DNA from: Myxococcales bacterium
GTDB lineage: Bacteria > Myxococcota_A > Bradymonadia > UBA7976 > UBA1532
Reading direction: 5' to 3'
Assembly: GCA_947488215.1 (NCBI GenBank)
Contig: CANLBD010000006.1
Location: forward strand, 1-32,089
DNA length: 32,089 nucleotides
This document shows, piece by piece, positions 23,697 to 32,089 of the stretch; within the stretch, counting starts at the first letter, position 1; each line of letters opens with the position of its first letter. The notes under the pieces were generated by a model. It made no database searches. It saw nothing but the letters and a program-made list of their open reading frames with translations, and was not told the origin of the DNA. The translations under genes and the position numbers were made by a program.

Positions 23697-24323
23697 ATGC
23701 CCCGCACCCGCGAAGAGATGGCTCAGCGCGCCGCCCAAGAGCTGCGTGACGGCTACGTCGTCAACCTCGGCATCGGCATCCCTACGCTGGTCGCCAACTA
23801 TGTGCCCGCCGGGATGGACATCGTCCTGCACAGCGAGAACGGCCTGATGGGCATGGGCCCCTACCCCTACGAGGGCGAGGAGGACCCGCAGATCATCAAC
23901 GCGGGCAAGGAGACCGTGACCATCCTGCCCGGCGGTTCGGTCTTCGACAGCGCGATGTCATTCGCCATGGTCCGCGGCGGGCATGTGGACCTGACCATTC
24001 TGGGCGGCATGGAGGTCAGCGCGACAGGCGACCTCGCCAACTGGATGGTCCCCGGCGCGCGCGTGAACGGCATGGGCGGCGCGATGGACCTCGTCAACGG
24101 CGCGAAGCGCGTCATCGTGCTCATGAGCCACACCAACAAGACCGGCGAGCCCAAGCTGCTCGACAAGTGCGCGCTCCCGCTGACGGGCGTCGGGTGCGTG
24201 AACCGCGTGATCACGGACTACGCGACCGTCGACGTTGGGCCAGACGGCTTCGTGCTCGTCGACGTCGCCGAGGGGCACACGGTCGAAGAGGTCCGCGCCC
24301 TGACGGGTGCGCCGCTGCGCTAG
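23697..24323 (+). CDS. scoB: 3-oxoacid CoA-transferase, subunit B
   Basis: A 208-residue subunit of a class I CoA-transferase (SCOT-like), moving CoA between succinyl-CoA or acetyl-CoA and another carboxylic acid. The catalytic glutamate lies in LHSENGLMG, and GIGIPTLVANYVP and GGSVFDSAMSFAMVRGG are family blocks. The ATG at 23697 has a GGAG site upstream; the frame is open to 23607 without likely coding content. It is usually co-directional with subunit A. Here it faces scoA, and the two stops share the palindrome CTAG. It may be transcribed from the gap shared with queA. Confidence 0.93.
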   Translation: MPRTREEMAQRAAQELRDGYVVNLGIGIPTLVANYVPAGMDIVLHSENGLMGMGPYPYEGEEDPQIINAGKETVTILPGGSVFDSAMSFAMVRGGHVDLTILGGMEVSATGDLANWMVPGARVNGMGGAMDLVNGAKRVIVLMSHTNKTGEPKLLDKCALPLTGVGCVNRVITDYATVDVGPDGFVLVDVAEGHTVEEVRALTGAPLR

Positions 24324-25018
24324 TCGCGCGGCCTCGTCGTGCGAATTTCGATGGGGTTCTCGTAGTCGCGGCCTTGGAAAATCCGCTGGACGAAGATGCC
24401 CGGCAGGTGAATGTCGTCTGGGTCGAGCGCGCCGACCGGGACGAGCTCCTCGACCTCGACGACCGTGATACGCGCGGCCATCGCCATCAGCGGGCTGAAG
24501 TTCCGCGCCGTGCGATAGAAGCGCAGGTTGCCGAAGGTGTCTCCCACGCGCGCGCGCAGGATCGCGTAGTCCGCCTTGAGCGCCTTCTCAAAGAGGTAGC
24601 GCTTGCCATCGATGACGCGCTCCTCCTTGCCCTCGGCCACCACTGTGCCGACGCCCGTGGGCGTGTAAAAGCCGCCAATGCCCGCCCCGCCCGCGCGGAT
24701 GCGCTCGGCGAGCGTCCCCTGCGGGTTGAGCTGCACGTCGACCTCACCGTTCAGCATCTGCTGCTGCAGGTCGGGGTTGCCGCCGATGAAGCTCGCGATC
24801 ACGGTCTTGACCTGCCGATTCTTGAGCAACATGGCGAGGCCGCGCCCCGCGTTCCCGCAGTTATTGCTCACGACCGTGAGGTCCTTGACCCCGCGGCGCG
24901 CGATCTCGCGAATGGAGTTCTCGGCGTTGCCGCACAGACCAAAGCCGCCCGACATCAGCGAGGCGCCATCGTGCATGTCGTGCAGCGCAGCGGCCGCGTC
25001 CGAATAGACCTTGTTCAT
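24320..25018 (-). CDS. scoA: 3-oxoacid CoA-transferase, subunit A
   Basis: A 232-residue partner of ScoB. It has the family signature near the start (DGASLMSGGFGLCGNAE), VSNNCGNAG, the CoA-binding SFIGGNP and the segment GGFYTPTGVGT. It is the last gene of the minus-strand operon, with its ATG overlapping the aminotransferase stop (ATGA). Encoding it with catabolic enzymes suggests that the acid formed by that pathway is activated or released by CoA transfer. Its own subunit B is on the opposite strand. Confidence 0.93.
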   Translation of the reverse strand: MNKVYSDAAAALHDMHDGASLMSGGFGLCGNAENSIREIARRGVKDLTVVSNNCGNAGRGLAMLLKNRQVKTVIASFIGGNPDLQQQMLNGEVDVQLNPQGTLAERIRAGGAGIGGFYTPTGVGTVVAEGKEERVIDGKRYLFEKALKADYAILRARVGDTFGNLRFYRTARNFSPLMAMAARITVVEVEELVPVGALDPDDIHLPGIFVQRIFQGRDYENPIEIRTTRPRD

Positions 25019-26343
25019 CCAAAAACCTCAGTGAGGGCGTCGTCCACCTGTTGTAGCCCGAAGAGCAGGTCCTGCTCGCTGATGCAGAGCGGCGGCGCGA
25101 TAAAGACGAAGTTCCACTTGAACAGGATGTGAAGCCCCTTCTCGGCGAGCTTCGCCTTGAAGCGCGCGGCGGGCGTCCCCGGCTTCGGCGCCTGATTGTA
25201 GCCGACGAGCGGCACGCGCGTCTCCGGGTCCTCGACGAGCTCGATCGCCCCCCACAGCCCCAAGTTGCGCACGTCCCCGACCACGTTCGGGTGCCGCGCC
25301 TTGAGCGCGTCGAGGCGCGCGGCCAAGACCGGCCCCAGGCGCGCCGAGTTGTCGATGAGCCCCTGCTCCACATACGTGTCGAGCGTCGCGACAGCCGCCG
25401 CGCACGAGATCGGGTGGGCGTAGTGCGTCAGCCCGCATTGGAGCACACGGTCCCCGAAGGTGTCCGCGAGGTCGCTCCGCAGCGCGACCGCACCCAGGGG
25501 CGCGTAGCCGCTCGTGAGGCCCTTGCCCATCGTGACCATGTCCGGCACGACGCCCCAGTGGTCGATGGCGAACCACTTGCCTGTGCGCCCGAAGCCCGTG
25601 AAGACCTCGTCTGCGACGAGCAGGATGCCGTAGCGCGTGCAGAGCTCACGGATCCGTGGCCAGTACTCCGGTGGCGGAATAAAGCCGCCGTTCGCGCCCG
25701 TGACGCCCTCGATGAAGACCGCCGCGATGCGGTCGGGGCCCTCCATCTGGATGACGTGCTCAAGGTGCTCGGCGCAGCGCACCCCGCAGCCGGGGTACTG
25801 CTGACCGAAGGGGCAGCGATAACAGTAGGGGTCTTCGGTGCGGACCACGCCCCACAGGTCGGGCTCGCCCGCCCATCGACGCGGGTCACCGGTGAGCGAG
25901 AGCGCGCCCATGGACGCGCCATGGTAGCTGCGTCTGCGCGCGATGACCTTCGACCGCCCCGTGATGATGCGCGCCATCTTGAGCGCGTTCTCGTTCGCCT
26001 CTGCGCCAGACAGGCACAAGAAGAATCGGTCTAGGCCCGGCGGTGTGATCGCGGCCAGGCGCTCGCCGAGCGCGGCCTTCGACTCGAAGACGGCGGCGGG
26101 ATGCGCGCACGCCAGCTCCGCCGCCTGCCGCGCGATGGCGTCTGTCACGCCCTTCTGCCCGTGGCCGATGTTGCAGTTGAAGACCTGGCTCTCGAAGTCG
26201 AGCGTGCGTCGACCGTCTTGGTCGTGAAACCACGCGCCCTCGCCCCCCGCGATGCGCACGGGCATCGCGGTGTTCTGGGCGCTCCAGGTGAACATGATGT
26301 GCTTGCGCTGCCGGGCTTCCAGCGCCTCTGTGCGGCTGCTCAT
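25015..26343 (-). CDS. Class III pyridoxal-phosphate aminotransferase
   Basis: A 442-residue fold-type I PLP enzyme of the omega-amino acid type. The phosphate loop LSGAEANE (111-118), SYHG (139-142), the PLP-contacting aspartate in VADEVFTGFGRTG (D245) and the Schiff-base lysine in TMGKGLTSG (K274) are intact. A cysteine cluster (PYCYRCPFG and PGCGVRC; C174, C177, C186, C190) is shared by one branch of the family. The frame is open to 26532; ATG 26343 is chosen because it overlaps the preceding stop (ATGA) and fits the usual N-terminus. The amino donor is unknown. It sits between a C45-like hydrolase and scoA in a catabolic-looking operon. Confidence 0.9.
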   Translation of the reverse strand: MSSRTEALEARQRKHIMFTWSAQNTAMPVRIAGGEGAWFHDQDGRRTLDFESQVFNCNIGHGQKGVTDAIARQAAELACAHPAAVFESKAALGERLAAITPPGLDRFFLCLSGAEANENALKMARIITGRSKVIARRRSYHGASMGALSLTGDPRRWAGEPDLWGVVRTEDPYCYRCPFGQQYPGCGVRCAEHLEHVIQMEGPDRIAAVFIEGVTGANGGFIPPPEYWPRIRELCTRYGILLVADEVFTGFGRTGKWFAIDHWGVVPDMVTMGKGLTSGYAPLGAVALRSDLADTFGDRVLQCGLTHYAHPISCAAAVATLDTYVEQGLIDNSARLGPVLAARLDALKARHPNVVGDVRNLGLWGAIELVEDPETRVPLVGYNQAPKPGTPAARFKAKLAEKGLHILFKWNFVFIAPPLCISEQDLLFGLQQVDDALTEVFG

Positions 26344-27413
26344 GCGTCGTACTCCGTCACCTCGATGGTCCGCGCAGCGGCGTCGTTCAGGCAGCCCCGG
26401 CGCGCGAGCATGCGGCGACCGCGCAGGTCGCACACCACGCCACCACAGGTCTTGCTCGCGGAAGGGTCGTCCCCGGTCAGGTGCGTACAGAGGCTCCTCG
26501 GGAAGCCCTCGTGGCTGCCGAGCAGCTGCCACAGGGCGCGTGCGTCTCGCGGGTGGAGCGCGTTCGGCCCCAGGTGCTGCTCAAGGCGGTCGTACCGATC
26601 ACACGTCGTGCTCGTCGGCAGGCGCGGCATCTCGAGCGGCTGAAGCTCCGGATGCAGGTAGTGGTTGGTGTGCCAGTACCAGCCGTGGGCATCCGCGTGC
26701 GTGACGCGCTGCAGGCGGCCGGTCGTCTCCACGTTGAACACCGCGCGCTCGTCCGCGACCATGTAGTTGTGCCCGCTCCCGAGGCGCGCCTCGCGCAGGA
26801 CCTCGACCGCGGCCTCGGCCGAGCGCTCCTCGAGCATGCGGCGCACCAGTGACGGCCACACGACCCCGACCCGCGCATCCGATGGCGTCAGGTTGTTGAT
26901 GCACACAGACACACCGGCGGTGTTCAGCCCGGTCATCCCGACACACCCAGCGAGCGTGAACAGCGCCATCGCCGGCGTGTTGTCCCGCTTGAGCCGGAGA
27001 GCGCCGACGAAGGCCTCGGCGGTGCCGTGCATGTCCCATGTCTGCGCCGCAAACGGCCCCTCGGGCAGCGGCCCGTAGACAACGCTGCAGCCCCCCGACT
27101 CGGGTGGGATGTCACGAAAGTCTGTGTAATGATTGAGGACGACGAGCTGCCACGGCTCGAGGCCACTCACGCGCGCGAAGCCCTCGAGCTCCTCGACCGC
27201 GGGCGGGTGAAAGTCGTGCAGCACGGGCAGGTGGGCCTCCGCGAGCGCCCGCAGCTGGGCGTCGTCGCGGACGCGGCTGCGCGCACGCAGCAGGCGCCAC
27301 CGCACGCCGAAGAGCGCCGCGGCGCGCTCGCCCCAGGCCTCGGCGTGCCGCTCCCCCAGCGCGCGCGCGCTGCCTCGACCCAGGTCGACCAGCTCGATCG
27401 CGTCGTCGCTCAT
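26340..27413 (-). CDS. C45-family Ntn hydrolase/acyltransferase-like protein
   Basis: A 357-residue protein resembling the acyl-CoA:6-aminopenicillanic acid acyltransferase (IAT, peptidase C45) family. LNHYTDFRD and GGCSVVYG supply the Gly-Cys site (G108/C109), where such proteins self-cleave to expose the nucleophilic cysteine. FAAQTWDMHGTA and GCVGMTGLNTAGVSVCINNL follow, both typical blocks. Members hydrolyse or transfer acyl groups on amines. In this operon it could remove the acyl group that the GNAT domain upstream adds, which is inference. Both ends overlap the neighbouring genes by four bases. Confidence 0.78.
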   Translation of the reverse strand: MSDDAIELVDLGRGSARALGERHAEAWGERAAALFGVRWRLLRARSRVRDDAQLRALAEAHLPVLHDFHPPAVEELEGFARVSGLEPWQLVVLNHYTDFRDIPPESGGCSVVYGPLPEGPFAAQTWDMHGTAEAFVGALRLKRDNTPAMALFTLAGCVGMTGLNTAGVSVCINNLTPSDARVGVVWPSLVRRMLEERSAEAAVEVLREARLGSGHNYMVADERAVFNVETTGRLQRVTHADAHGWYWHTNHYLHPELQPLEMPRLPTSTTCDRYDRLEQHLGPNALHPRDARALWQLLGSHEGFPRSLCTHLTGDDPSASKTCGGVVCDLRGRRMLARRGCLNDAAARTIEVTEYDA

Positions 27414-30400
27414 GCGTCCGCCAGCGCGCCGCGCAGCGCCTCTCCAAACCGCGCGACCTCGTCGACGGTCACTGTAACCGGCGGCGCGATGAGGATGAGC
27501 CCAGGCTCTCCGAGCGGCGGTCGACCGACGAGCACGCCCCGCTCACGCAGCCGAGTCGTCAAGCGCGCCGCGCGCTCGGGCGCCATGCAGACCACGCGGT
27601 ACAAGCCCGCGCCCGACGCGTTCAGGCCCACCGCGTTCAGGACCTCACCGAGCGCGTGGGCGGCGGGGCCGACGTCGAGCCCTTCGGTCGCGTAGAGCTG
27701 CCACAGGAGGCGCGTCGCCGAGAGTTCATCACCGTCCCAGGTGCTGATGAGCTGGAGCGGCTCACTCACGAAGACGCGGTCGCTGGCAAAGACGTGCCCG
27801 ATCTGACCACCCGCCCACCAGAGAACGAGGTCGGCGTGACCCTCGAGCTGCTCGCTGAACCACCGGCGCCCGCCCGCGCGCCCAAAGCCCGTCGTCGTCT
27901 CGATGAGCACGAGGGGCACTCCCGTGCGGTCGCGCCACGCGCAGAGCGCAGCCCACCCGTCGCGGGACAACACTCGCCCCGTGCGCGCCTGCACGGTCTC
28001 TACGTAGACGCCCAGCAGCGCCTCGACGCCATGCTGCGCGACCACCGCGTCCAGCGCAGCGACGCAGCCTGCGTCGTTCGGGTGCGGCAGTCGCGGCCAG
28101 TCGAAGTAGCCGAACGGGCCAGCGCCGGCCGGACCGCCGACCTCGGAGAGAGACCGTGCCGCGGCCGTCGTGTGCCCAACGTAGCTGCCGTCGAACGACA
28201 CGGCGATGCGCGCTTGGCCGCGCTGGTGACGCAGCGAGCGGAGGCTCTTGTCGACCATCTCGTCGTTGCCGCTGGTGAAGTACATATGCGCCATGCCCGG
28301 CGGGGTCACCGCACGCAGCGCCTCGGCGTACCGGGCGTAGGCCGGCGTGATGAAGTTGCTGACCGTGAGCTTCGTCAGCGAGGCCTCATCGAACACGCCC
28401 GTCTCGAGGGCGCGCACCAAGAGCGGATGCGCTGCGCCCGTGGGCGCGTTCACGCCCTGCGCGAAGTCGAGCACGTTGGGCCCCTGGCGAGCGGGCGAGG
28501 TCGCGCGCCGGTCCGCGCGCCGCAGCGGGATGCGGTAGTAGCGCGTCTGGCCCGTGGCCTCGCCGTACTGGCCCGCGTAGACCGCGACGGTGTACGCGCC
28601 GAGGCGCTGGTTGACGGCCCACATCGTATCCGCCGCCTCGACGCGGTTGCGGCCCGTGATGAAGGCGTAGCGCGGCGCGCCATCGGGGCGCCGCGCGACC
28701 ATGGCCTCGCGCATCTGGCGCTCCCGAAGCCGCAGGCCGATGCCCCGCCCTCGGGCGCGGCGCGCGACCGTCACGTCCGCCGAGTACAGCGTGTTCTCGT
28801 GGCCGATGTGCGGGTCCTGACGGGGTCCGTCGACCCCCCACCACATCTCGAGCGGCCCCGCGAAGCTCATGCCGACCAGACCGCGCGGATCTTCAGCGAC
28901 GAGCACGATGCCGCCATCGCTGCCCGCCACGCTCCGCAGGTACGTCACCTCATCACGCCGAGCCGCCTCGTAGGCGTCTGTCTCGAGCGCGACGATCGCC
29001 TCGATGAGCTGGTCGAAGCCCGCCGGGGTCAGGCGCCGGATGCGCGTGCCGAGTACGTCTGCCGCGAAGTGAAGGAGCGGGACACCGACGGCGGCCTCGA
29101 ACTCCTTGGCGTCAGCGGCGCGCAGAGCGGCGAGCGCGCTCAGGCCGCGCGCGTCCTCGGGTAGGCGCAAGTGGGCCGCGCTTGCGGCGCGGTCCGCATC
29201 GCTCAGCTCCCCATGCGCCCGCAGCACGAGGTCCGCGGTCTCCGGCCGCGGGTTCGCGAGCAGCGCAGAGAGCGAGGGCGTGCGAGAGCGACGCGGCGGG
29301 TGTGGCGGATGCGGCGCCCACGCGGGCGCAGTGCAGGCGTCCATGCGCGCGATCAGGTCGTCGCCCATGTGCCCGCCCGCTTGGGCGACGAGCGCTGAGA
29401 TCGAGCGGTCGATGATCTCGAAGATGACGTCGACGTCGGCGGGGACCATCGCGCGGTTGAGCCGGTAGCGCAGGGTCTTCGCCCCCGCGGGGTAGACCAT
29501 GTAGCCTTGGTAAAAGCGCTGCGCGATCATGTGCTTGAGGATCGCGGCGGACGGCATGTCGATCGCGAGAGCGTCGCCATACACGCGGGGTCGACTCACG
29601 ATGTCGGGCCAGCTCTCCACGAGCTCATCGAGCTTCTGGCGCACATAGTCCTCGAGCAAGATCGGCGGGTGCACCAAGCCCAGGTGCACGCGACCGCGGG
29701 CCAAGCTCGCGCCGTGCGCCTGAGATGGCCGAACGTCCGGCCAGCGCGACAGCACGATGCCCACCTGCGCCCGCTTCGCGCCCGTCACCAAGTCGGGGCC
29801 GTCGGGCTTGCCGTCGGCGTCCAAGAACCAGAAGTTGCGCTGCCACAGGAACGAGCCCGACAGGCCGAAGCCCGCCTGGACTTCGTCGACAATGAGCGGC
29901 ACGCCGTAGGCCCGCGTCAGCGCGCGCAGGCCGTGGTAGAATCGGCGCGTCGCCGCGTTGTCGCCGCCCTCGCACTGGTAGGGCTCGAGCAGGACCGCGA
30001 GCATGTCGCCCTTGCGGATCTGCGCCTCGACAGCGATCAGTGACTCGACCTCGGCGCGGAGCAGCGGGTCGCCGTCGCCGCGGAAACGGTCGCGGTCGGC
30101 CGTCGCGTCCGCCCAGTGGCTCCGCCAACCCACGGGGAGCAACGGATTGGCGTAGGGGTCCTCGGCCGCCGGGTACGGCACGAACTCCACGCCGTATCCC
30201 TCGAGCTGGTAGCGCGCGCGCTTCTCGGGGCTCCAGGTCGCGAAGAGCGGCAGCAGCGTGCGGCCGTGAAAGCTGCCCTCGAACGCGACAATGCGGCGCC
30301 CGCCCGTCCCGTTGCGGCGCGCGATGTCGAGCGCCTTCTCGTTCGCCTCGGAGCCGCCGTTGGTGTAGGTCACATGCCGCAGCCACGGCGCGGAGAAGCC

Positions 30401-31060
30401 GGTCAGCTCGCAGGCGTACTCGCGGGCCTCGGCGTAAGCGGGCGTCCCCGGAAGCTCGGCGTCATGCGCCGCGAGCAGGTGCGCGTCGAAGTGCCCGGCG
30501 TCGAGCGCAGCCTGAACTGGGCCCGGACGAAAGCCAGCGGGCAGAGACGCGATCTGACTCGCCGCGTCGATGATCTGAATCGGCTCAGCGTCGACCGAAC
30601 GCAGCCAGGGGCCCCGGCTGCGCTGCAGGTCGACGACGATCGACTTCTTCTCTCGCGGCACAAACTGGCCGCCATAGAAGCGCTCCAAGTACGCGGCTGA
30701 GCGCGGGAGCTTGCCGTCCTCGGGCACATGAATCCCGCCCGCCGGCGCTGAGAAGAACGCGGCGGGGTCTTCCTCGGCCAGGCCGCCCAAGAAGCGGCGC
30801 AGCGCGTCTTCATCGTGGTCGACACCGTCCCCCGTGATCGCGAGCACGACGGCCTCGGCGTTGACTTTGAGGCCCGCGTCTGCGGCGCGTCGCGCCGCAA
30901 CCTCCCCGGCCAGCGGACGGCCACCGACCCGAACGCTCTCGAACCGCGCGAACGGCAAGTGAACGTGCGACGCCTCCACCGACTCGTCGAAGAAGAGACC
31001 GAAGCGCTCAGCGACCTCCTCGAGGCGCTGGCGATGCATCAGGCGAAGGAGAGCGGACAT
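27410..31060 (-). CDS. Trifunctional fusion: class III aminotransferase, GNAT acetyltransferase-like domain, degenerate aminotransferase
   Basis: A 1216-residue protein, two to three times the length of a usual aminotransferase. Residues about 150-565 form a lysine 6-aminotransferase-like unit: TNGGSEANE (233-241), FHGRT (264-268), VDEVQAGFG with PLP aspartate D392, and the PLP lysine in TGAKRAQVG (K429). Residues 1-150 are of unknown fold. A Pro/Arg-rich linker (about 578-600) leads to a GNAT-like domain (about 670-846) with the acetyl-CoA loop ARGRGIG (R770, G773, G775). Residues about 860-1216 again resemble an aminotransferase (FITPAYARYAEALRAV, ETTTGFGRAG), but the lysine position is A1083 and the aspartate position I1053, so PLP catalysis there is unlikely. 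No stop or frameshift breaks the gene. It begins two bases after the aldehyde dehydrogenase stop and overlaps the C45-like gene. Confidence 0.8.
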   Translation of the reverse strand: MSALLRLMHRQRLEEVAERFGLFFDESVEASHVHLPFARFESVRVGGRPLAGEVAARRAADAGLKVNAEAVVLAITGDGVDHDEDALRRFLGGLAEEDPAAFFSAPAGGIHVPEDGKLPRSAAYLERFYGGQFVPREKKSIVVDLQRSRGPWLRSVDAEPIQIIDAASQIASLPAGFRPGPVQAALDAGHFDAHLLAAHDAELPGTPAYAEAREYACELTGFSAPWLRHVTYTNGGSEANEKALDIARRNGTGGRRIVAFEGSFHGRTLLPLFATWSPEKRARYQLEGYGVEFVPYPAAEDPYANPLLPVGWRSHWADATADRDRFRGDGDPLLRAEVESLIAVEAQIRKGDMLAVLLEPYQCEGGDNAATRRFYHGLRALTRAYGVPLIVDEVQAGFGLSGSFLWQRNFWFLDADGKPDGPDLVTGAKRAQVGIVLSRWPDVRPSQAHGASLARGRVHLGLVHPPILLEDYVRQKLDELVESWPDIVSRPRVYGDALAIDMPSAAILKHMIAQRFYQGYMVYPAGAKTLRYRLNRAMVPADVDVIFEIIDRSISALVAQAGGHMGDDLIARMDACTAPAWAPHPPHPPRRSRTPSLSALLANPRPETADLVLRAHGELSDADRAASAAHLRLPEDARGLSALAALRAADAKEFEAAVGVPLLHFAADVLGTRIRRLTPAGFDQLIEAIVALETDAYEAARRDEVTYLRSVAGSDGGIVLVAEDPRGLVGMSFAGPLEMWWGVDGPRQDPHIGHENTLYSADVTVARRARGRGIGLRLRERQMREAMVARRPDGAPRYAFITGRNRVEAADTMWAVNQRLGAYTVAVYAGQYGEATGQTRYYRIPLRRADRRATSPARQGPNVLDFAQGVNAPTGAAHPLLVRALETGVFDEASLTKLTVSNFITPAYARYAEALRAVTPPGMAHMYFTSGNDEMVDKSLRSLRHQRGQARIAVSFDGSYVGHTTAAARSLSEVGGPAGAGPFGYFDWPRLPHPNDAGCVAALDAVVAQHGVEALLGVYVETVQARTGRVLSRDGWAALCAWRDRTGVPLVLIETTTGFGRAGGRRWFSEQLEGHADLVLWWAGGQIGHVFASDRVFVSEPLQLISTWDGDELSATRLLWQLYATEGLDVGPAAHALGEVLNAVGLNASGAGLYRVVCMAPERAARLTTRLRERGVLVGRPPLGEPGLILIAPPVTVTVDEVARFGEALRGALADA

Positions 31061-31062
31061 TT

Positions 31063-32089
31063 TCAGACTCCGGGCGAGAGCGCGTCGAGTTGGGGGTTCG
31101 CGGTCCGAGCGCCGAGGGGCACCGACATGACCGCGACCGGATAGGTGGAGAGTCGTGGCGCGCAGGAGCCCGCCGCGTGCCAGTTACCGCTCATGCCGAT
31201 ACCGCCAAAGGGCAAGAGGCCGCTGGCGCCGTTCGTGCTGCGGTTGAAATTCAAGACCCCCGCAGGGACCTCGTCATAGAAGCGCTCAAACGCCTCGGCG
31301 CGGGCTGAGAACAAGCTCGCGCTCAGGCCATAGGGCGTCGCCGCCGCGCGCGCAAAGGCATCTGCCTCGTCGCGCGCCACCTCGAACGCCACGTGGGGCC
31401 CAAAGACCTCCTCGCGCACGGTCGGCTCGTCGCCGCGCGCCTCGTAGAGGGCAGGCGTGACGAAGGCGCCGCCGGGGAGCGTGCGGGCCTCGACGAGCGG
31501 CCGCAGTCCCTCGTGTCGGGCCTGCGCGCACGCCGCGACGAAGCGCTCGTGTGAGGCTCGGTTCGCGAGCGGGCCCATGAACGTCTCCGCCCGCATCGGG
31601 TCGCCCGGGACAACACGCTCAAATGCCGCGACTAAGCGGTCCCGCAGCTTTGCAGCGATCTGTGACGTCGCCACGACGCGCGATGTGGCCGTGCACCGCT
31701 GCCCGGTGGTCAGGAGTGCCCCGAGGACAATCTCCCGCGCAGCATGGTCAAGGTCTGCGTCGTCGAGCACGACCGCGGCGTTCTTGCCGCCGAGCTCCAA
31801 GCAGACCTTCTTCCACGGGCTGTCGAAGGTCGCCTCGCGAATGCGTCGGCCCGTCGCATAACTCCCCGTGAAGACAAGCCCCCGCACCGCCGGGTGCGCG
31901 ACGAGCGCTGCGCCCGCATCGCCGAGGCCGTGTACGAGGTTGAAGACCCCCACCGGCACACCTGCATCGGGGTCAGCGAACCACGCGGCGTAGCGCTGCG
32001 CCGCGAGCGGCGTGACCTCGCTCGGCTTCACGACCACCGTGTTGCCCGTCAGCAACGTCGGCACCAAGTGGGTGTTGATCAAGTGCAGC
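31063..32089 (-). CDS. Aldehyde dehydrogenase, AstD-like (N-terminus outside window)
   Basis: The C-terminal 341 residues or so of an NAD(P)-dependent aldehyde dehydrogenase; the frame runs off the window end at 32089. GNTVVVKPSE (cofactor site), VFTGSYATGRRI, the general-base glutamate in LELGGKNAAVV and the catalytic cysteine in TTGQRCTATSR are present. LNFNRSTNGASGLLPFGG and GIGMSGN near the C-terminus match succinylglutamate-semialdehyde dehydrogenase (AstD), which oxidises the semialdehyde left after transamination of N-succinylornithine. The true substrate here is open. It is the first visible gene of the minus-strand operon. Confidence 0.82.
   Translation of the reverse strand, partial: LHLINTHLVPTLLTGNTVVVKPSEVTPLAAQRYAAWFADPDAGVPVGVFNLVHGLGDAGAALVAHPAVRGLVFTGSYATGRRIREATFDSPWKKVCLELGGKNAAVVLDDADLDHAAREIVLGALLTTGQRCTATSRVVATSQIAAKLRDRLVAAFERVVPGDPMRAETFMGPLANRASHERFVAACAQARHEGLRPLVEARTLPGGAFVTPALYEARGDEPTVREEVFGPHVAFEVARDEADAFARAAATPYGLSASLFSARAEAFERFYDEVPAGVLNFNRSTNGASGLLPFGGIGMSGNWHAAGSCAPRLSTYPVAVMSVPLGARTANPQLDALSPGV

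Follow-up and report, generated by a model that had tools for sequence, protein, structure and literature searches.

The window analysed here is the whole 32-kb contig CANLBD010000006.1 (32,089 nucleotides) from a 2.7-Mb metagenome-assembled genome (67% complete) of a Myxococcales bacterium (GCA_947488215.1). One gene in it encodes a protein of 1216 residues, in which two class III aminotransferase domains, AT1 and AT2, enclose a GNAT-like domain (Table 1). AT1 and AT2 were found to have lost and retained active-site residues reciprocally: AT1 kept the residues that a subunit of this enzyme class provides for its own active site, and AT2 kept the loop that is provided for the neighbouring subunit. 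Judged from this pattern, the protein is very likely a covalent aminotransferase pseudo-heterodimer, with one composite active site and a GNAT acyltransferase between its halves. The initial annotation of this stretch had suggested an internal heterodimer within one unbroken fusion gene; the gene was confirmed, with no internal stop, and the heterodimer is strongly supported by the residue pattern.

Reciprocal active-site residues in AT1 and AT2

Class III aminotransferases are obligate dimers, and their active site includes one loop from the neighbouring subunit. In the lysine aminotransferase LAT, the own-subunit active-site residues are Gly128, Ala129, Phe167, His168, Arg170, Glu238, Glu243, Asp271, Val273, Gln274, Lys300 and Arg422, and Asn328, Ser329 and Thr330 come from the other subunit (review, PMC9780415). 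The AT1 domains of 33 fusion proteins and the AT2 domains of 34 were aligned to the M. tuberculosis LAT sequence. Gly128, His168, Arg170, Glu238, Glu243, Asp271, Val273, Gln274, Lys300 and Arg422 were present in all 33 AT1 domains and Phe167 in 32 of them, and the Ala129 position was occupied by Ala, Ser or Gly (Ser in the window). The partner loop (328-331) was gapped in 33/33, with one stray residue, and about 13 residues are deleted there. AT2 showed the reverse pattern. Lys300, Asp271 and Arg422 were each found in 0/34 sequences and Arg170 in 1/34, leaving Glu238 as the only constant residue among the twelve own-subunit positions, whereas Ser329, Thr330 and Trp331 were present in all 34. 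STWDGD was the best conserved six-residue window of AT2 (4.25 of a maximum of 4.32 bits; the next reached 3.60), and the top conserved windows of AT1 included the own-subunit motifs FHGR, DEVQ, QCEGGD, AKRAQ and TLRYRL. In AT3, an ordinary relative encoded in the same operon, the Lys, Asp and Thr occurred together in all seven aligned sequences. The own-subunit and partner-subunit losses are thus reciprocal, indicating that each half has lost what the other supplies. All the residues named in the initial annotation (D392, K429, R770-G775 as RGRGIG, I1053, A1083 and TSGNDEM) were in place, and its view of AT1 as an apparently active-type unit agrees with the lysine and aspartate for pyridoxal 5′-phosphate (PLP) in all 33 members.

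Class III aminotransferase was the sole Pfam-A match above cut-off in the 1216-residue protein, in two stretches. PF00202 scored 167.8 bits on the whole protein (cut-off 30.5), with its best stretch in AT1, and AT2 by itself (residues 866-1216) passed with 44.6 bits. Moreover, the AT2 sequence matched solved class III transaminases (6fyq, E = 1.8e-10), and class III transaminases were also the best PDB matches of a structural model of GNAT-AT2 (Foldseek E = 1.8e-18); this model helped for the fold class alone, its global superposition being poor (template modelling score ~0.3-0.4). None of the outcomes that the initial annotation named as refuting its reading came about. The possibility that AT2 is another active enzyme whose lysine has shifted position was rejected, since the PLP lysine and aspartate occur in 0/34 and no invariant lysine was found at or near their positions. 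The nearest solved relative of AT1 was LAT (Rv3290c, 2cin; E = 1.4e-19), and AT1 scored below the curated cut-off of the L-lysine 6-transaminase model TIGR03251 (124.9 vs 520.8). With the LAT-type glutamate-switch set Arg170, Glu243, Arg422 and Gln274 intact in AT1 of 33/33 members, AT1/AT2 is predicted to be a 2-oxoglutarate-dependent omega-transaminase.

In the composite site that we infer from these residues, AT1 would hold PLP (K429 and D392) and contribute R267, E364 and R531 as substrate and switch residues. AT2, which cannot form a Schiff base with PLP, would lend its Ser-Thr-Trp loop (1106-1108) to the PLP phosphate of AT1. Each AT1/AT2 pair would then have a single functional active site, formed within one chain or by swapping between two. 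At the site of the loop deletion, AT1 residues 449-456 (29693-29716) carry a new conserved motif, HxxSxxRG, with S452 and R455 invariant in the conservation set; this motif may face the empty pocket of AT2.

The two aminotransferase domains are homologous (hhalign E = 1.9e-18), and the LAT-type STW motif of AT2 suggests that a LAT-like ancestor was duplicated internally. The ratio of nonsynonymous to synonymous substitution rates (dN/dS) was 0.16-0.46 for AT2, near the 0.12-0.35 of AT1, pointing to comparable purifying selection on both domains. A catalytically dead homolog of AT1 under purifying selection would also be seen if AT2 were merely structural or regulatory, a stabilising or allosteric dimer partner of AT1 with no part in catalysis. 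However, the sole active-site motif that AT2 keeps in every member is the loop which in LAT reaches the PLP phosphate of the partner, and this loop is the one deleted from AT1. Such complementarity is not expected from a scaffold alone, and we consider a structural AT2 improbable. A new binding role for AT2, also raised in the initial annotation, is less likely than the supply of the partner-side loop. That AT2 is a decaying remnant heading for loss, as the disappearance of nearly all its own-subunit catalytic residues and its decay in three genomes of the f18 subclade might suggest, is hardly credible, since no aligned member has a truncated AT2, S-T-W is invariant and dN/dS lies near that of AT1, AT1 decays alongside it in the decaying genomes, and its conservation across 13 families largely refutes the idea.

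Coupled loss also speaks for a shared site: in the three f18 genomes (G228, G193 and G208; loci L117, L118 and L119), the lysine of AT1 and the loop of AT2 have both disappeared and the GNAT domain is well conserved. Several points weigh against a composite active site. No reliable structural model was obtained: the whole-chain AlphaFold prediction, which used a 7-row alignment, reached a mean local confidence (pLDDT) of 53.5 and a predicted template modelling score (pTM) of 0.34, too poor to judge packing, and the GNAT-AT2 model reached pLDDT 71 and pTM 0.42, so that AT1-AT2 packing is unseen. The position of Asn328 is occupied by Ile or Val in AT2. The three f18 proteins cluster in the GNAT tree (support 85/46, inner pair 99/92), so the coupled loss counts as one evolutionary event, at most two. 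In addition, a fusion of aldehyde dehydrogenase (ALDH) and GNAT in genome G076 (688 residues, L120:7736-9799) has a GNAT domain of the same family and neither aminotransferase domain, indicating that GNAT and ALDH can do without the AT pair.

A division of labour of this kind is known from serine palmitoyltransferase LCB1/LCB2 (SPT1/SPT2), in which one catalytic subunit carries the PLP lysine, its homologous partner lacks it, and the two share one active site where they meet (PMC6148460). Like that pair, the fusion combines catalytic and non-catalytic homologs of fold-type I; the residue pattern is present here, and AT1 and AT2 presumably contact each other. Unlike LCB1/LCB2, which are separate eukaryotic polypeptides of the alpha-oxoamine synthase family, the fusion is a class III aminotransferase in one bacterial chain, its halves separated by a GNAT domain. 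On this comparison, the best reading is that it would work like the LCB1/LCB2 pair but is no member of that system. LAT shares its own-subunit positions with AT1 and its S-T-W partner loop with AT2, but it is a homodimer with both residue sets in each subunit. A 2022 review (PMC9309667) describes aminotransferases of this fold as homodimers or homotetramers and notes how little is known about heteromultimers built from monomers of different aminotransferases. In line with the initial annotation, the literature searched, outside which most subscription journals lay, contained no report of such a class III aminotransferase or of this three-part domain order. While a pseudo-subunit is already known in fold-type I, from serine palmitoyltransferase, a class III case with this order appears to be new. 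The fusion would represent natural subfunctionalisation inside a composite active site, in which, following duplication, the losses of each half were confined to what the other provides. Such a fixed partner would permit single-site mutations in one half-site, which are impossible in homodimers.

Table 1. Positions of the fusion gene, its domains and key residues, and the neighbouring genes in the window
Feature	Position	Strand	Remark
Whole fusion gene	27410..31060	-	one open frame, ATG start, 1216 aa, no internal stop
N-terminal extension, residues 1-107	30740..31060	-	no Pfam match
AT1, residues 108-565	29366..30739	-	class III aminotransferase, LAT/GABA-AT type
D392, equivalent to LAT D271 (PLP N1)	29885..29887	-	33/33 members
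K429, equivalent to LAT K300 (PLP lysine)	29774..29776	-	33/33 members
S446/Q447 junction	29720..29725	-	AT1 lacks ~13 residues of LAT partner loop N328-S329-T330-W331, 33/33 members
Linker, residues 566-661	29078..29365	-	
GNAT-like domain, residues 662-858	28487..29077	-	
RGRGIG, residues 770-775	28736..28753	-	acyl-CoA pyrophosphate loop (predicted); G773 and G775 invariant in 14-member alignment
AT2, residues 870-1216	27413..28453	-	catalytically degenerate class III aminotransferase domain
I1053, at PLP-aspartate position	27902..27904	-	Asp in 0/34
A1083, at PLP-lysine position	27812..27814	-	A/G/P/C/T/S in 34/34
STWDGD, residues 1106-1111	27728..27745	-	equivalent of LAT partner loop S329-T330-W331; S-T-W in 34/34
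AstD-like aldehyde dehydrogenase	31063..32088	-	upstream, cut by contig end; fused N-terminally in several relatives
C45 autoproteolytic acyltransferase/hydrolase	26340..27413	-	candidate deacylase; start overlaps fusion stop by 4 bases
AT3, ordinary class III aminotransferase, PRK06062-like	25015..26343	-	PLP Lys, Asp and partner Thr present
3-oxoacid CoA-transferase subunit A (ScoA-like)	24320..25018	-	
3-oxoacid CoA-transferase subunit B (ScoB-like)	23697..24323	+	convergent with subunit A

The GNAT-like domain and the spread of the fusion

The three thirds of the protein were searched separately against families. AT1 and AT2 matched PF00202, and the Pfam GNAT models missed their cut-offs on the window protein (Acetyltransf_7, 16.2 vs 27; Acetyltransf_1, 15 vs 20.7), the best GNAT score within the fusion family being 19.9 vs 20.7. 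The middle domain does have an RxxGxG loop, and its predicted element order, b1-a1-a2-b2-b3-b4-a3-b5-a4-b6-b7, agrees with GNAT in a part of the model with pLDDT mostly 65-92. All PDB fold matches listed for the GNAT-AT2 model were aminotransferases. The GNAT domain of the initial annotation is consistent with the loop and the element order but not supported by the family models; its assignment is weaker than those of the aminotransferase domains, and we describe it as a divergent, GNAT-like domain. A search for its substrate through homology gave no close family in NCBIfam or PDB.

The AT1-GNAT-AT2 order was found on independent contigs of more than 30 genomes, in 13 Myxococcota families. Seven close relatives, of which two carry the label Myxococcales, came from a scan of genome contigs of bacteria and archaea, and 16 of 96 relatives had matches when whole genomes were searched. 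In a sample of the phylum, the GNAT-AT2 profile had strong matches (E below 1e-120) in 30/237 genomes, the weaker ones being mostly other aminotransferases or partial. The GNAT profile matched 38 of 283 genomes, in 14 family-level groups. An assembly or frameshift artefact, which would have joined separate genes, was ruled out because the same domain order recurs on many unrelated contigs of other genomes. The single non-Myxococcota match of the contig scan (L009) is restricted to AT1, with 25% identity, and does not belong to the family; a plasmid search gave no match. Among the members read, the domain order was constant except in the three decaying f18 proteins and in G076. In several families, an AstD-like aldehyde dehydrogenase is fused N-terminally, resulting in proteins of ~1530-1740 residues. 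The linker and the N-terminal extension of the window protein are found in its own family and neighbouring ones; the linker is nearly absent in shorter members, and the extension is shorter in members of ~1020-1060 residues. One fusion gene (G003, L038:3194-7477) lies away from the usual operon, near genes that by eye resemble an aminomethyltransferase and two FAD-dependent oxidoreductases.

Gene neighbourhood and candidate pathway

The cluster of ALDH, fusion, C45 hydrolase, AT3 and 3-oxoacid CoA-transferase recurs across families, often with 4-base overlaps. AstD was the best family for the ALDH, with succinate-semialdehyde dehydrogenases scoring lower (375 vs 228 bits), but full-length ALDH relatives remained under the AstD cut-offs (375-378 vs 514 for PRK09457; 359 vs 579 for TIGR03240). 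The C45 gene passed NF040521 (187.3 vs 85), with one Cys column invariant in 6 members, and the CoA-transferase subunit B passed TIGR02428 (325.3 vs 243.6). The presence of GNAT and a hydrolase in the cluster suggests an amino group that is first acylated and afterwards released, AT1/AT2 with ALDH suggests that a terminal amine is turned into a carboxylate, and AT3 with the CoA-transferase suggests a 3-oxo acid. In such a scheme, GNAT would acylate an amino group on one of the pathway's substrates, AT1/AT2 would produce a semialdehyde for oxidation by the AstD-like dehydrogenase, the C45 hydrolase would take off the acyl group, and AT3 and the CoA-transferase would make and then activate the 3-oxo acid. 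Channelling between transamination and acylation, another suggestion of the initial annotation, may occur; the ALDH fusion and the conserved operon would fit it without demonstrating it. The cluster probably breaks down an acyl-protected amino compound, most likely a diamino or beta-amino acid. Beta-lysine is the best single guess for the substrate, though a tentative one. The KamA family, needed for beta-lysine, matched 92/96 genomes and was hence uninformative, and the KamA neighbourhoods examined held no operon genes; with lysine 2,3-aminomutase near-universal and unlinked to the cluster, the beta-lysine guess is left without independent support.

Two orders of steps could fit the gene set, and beta-lysine is possible in both. 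In the first, GNAT, AT1/AT2, ALDH, C45, AT3 and CoA-transferase would act in succession, and beta-lysine would pass through N3-acyl-beta-lysine, N-acyl-3-aminoadipate semialdehyde, 3-aminoadipate and 3-oxoadipate to 3-oxoadipyl-CoA. This order matches the order of genes and domains; the fused domain order favours GNAT, AT1/AT2 and ALDH in succession, and the ALDH is itself fused into the chain in several families. Moreover, the ALDH comes closest to AstD, whose reaction is the oxidation of an N-acylated semialdehyde, and the CoA-transferase families include 3-oxoadipate transferases. On the other hand, KamA is unlinked, and the f18 loci, which have lost AT1/AT2, keep GNAT and mostly AT3 and the CoA-transferase with no ALDH or C45 seen there, so that the middle of the route would have been removed. 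We regard this order as a possible but rather unlikely one.

The second order is the older acetyl-beta-lysine route, to which we give the same low weight. Here GNAT would acetylate the omega-amine, AT3 would form the 3-oxo acid, the CoA-transferase would activate it, thiolysis would lead to an acetamido acid, C45 would deacetylate it, and AT1/AT2 with ALDH would convert 4-aminobutyrate (GABA) to succinate. The Bacillus subtilis kamA-yodPQRST genes encode a GNAT, an M20-type deacylase, CoA-transferase subunits A and B and a class III aminotransferase. The f18 set of GNAT, AT3 and ScoAB recalls this cluster and favours the acetyl-beta-lysine order, and AT1 keeps the glutamate-switch residues of GABA-AT and LAT. 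Against it, the ALDH is nearer to AstD than to succinate-semialdehyde dehydrogenases, no thiolase was seen in the cluster, and in the search for a stand-alone GABA transaminase no genome passed the cut-off and the matches did not separate genomes with the fusion from those without.

The cluster resembles kamA-yodPQRST in having GNAT, deacylase, CoA-transferase A/B and class III aminotransferase together, but it has no adjacent KamA, has an extra ALDH and the AT1/AT2 pair, and carries C45 in place of the M20-type deacylase. Both kamA (BSU19690) and yodT (BSU19740) are SigE-dependent (PMC6522883). The arginine succinyltransferase (AST) pathway, to which AstD belongs, also works on an amino acid in acyl-protected form, as proposed for the cluster, and also includes a transaminase and a deacylase; the cluster differs in the sub-threshold ALDH scores, and no AstA- or AstB-like gene was recognised in it. 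Taken as a whole, the reciprocally degenerate halves, the composite site and GNAT, often with ALDH, may form an enzyme of three to four parts that carries out consecutive steps in an acyl-protected amino-acid catabolism, so far undescribed and widespread in Myxococcota, a broader proposal that we consider about as likely as not. In this poorly cultured phylum, the operon suggests a catabolic route yet to be characterised. In the window, the genes for the two CoA-transferase subunits (23697-25018) are convergent with a 4-base overlap, whereas they are co-directional in several relatives.

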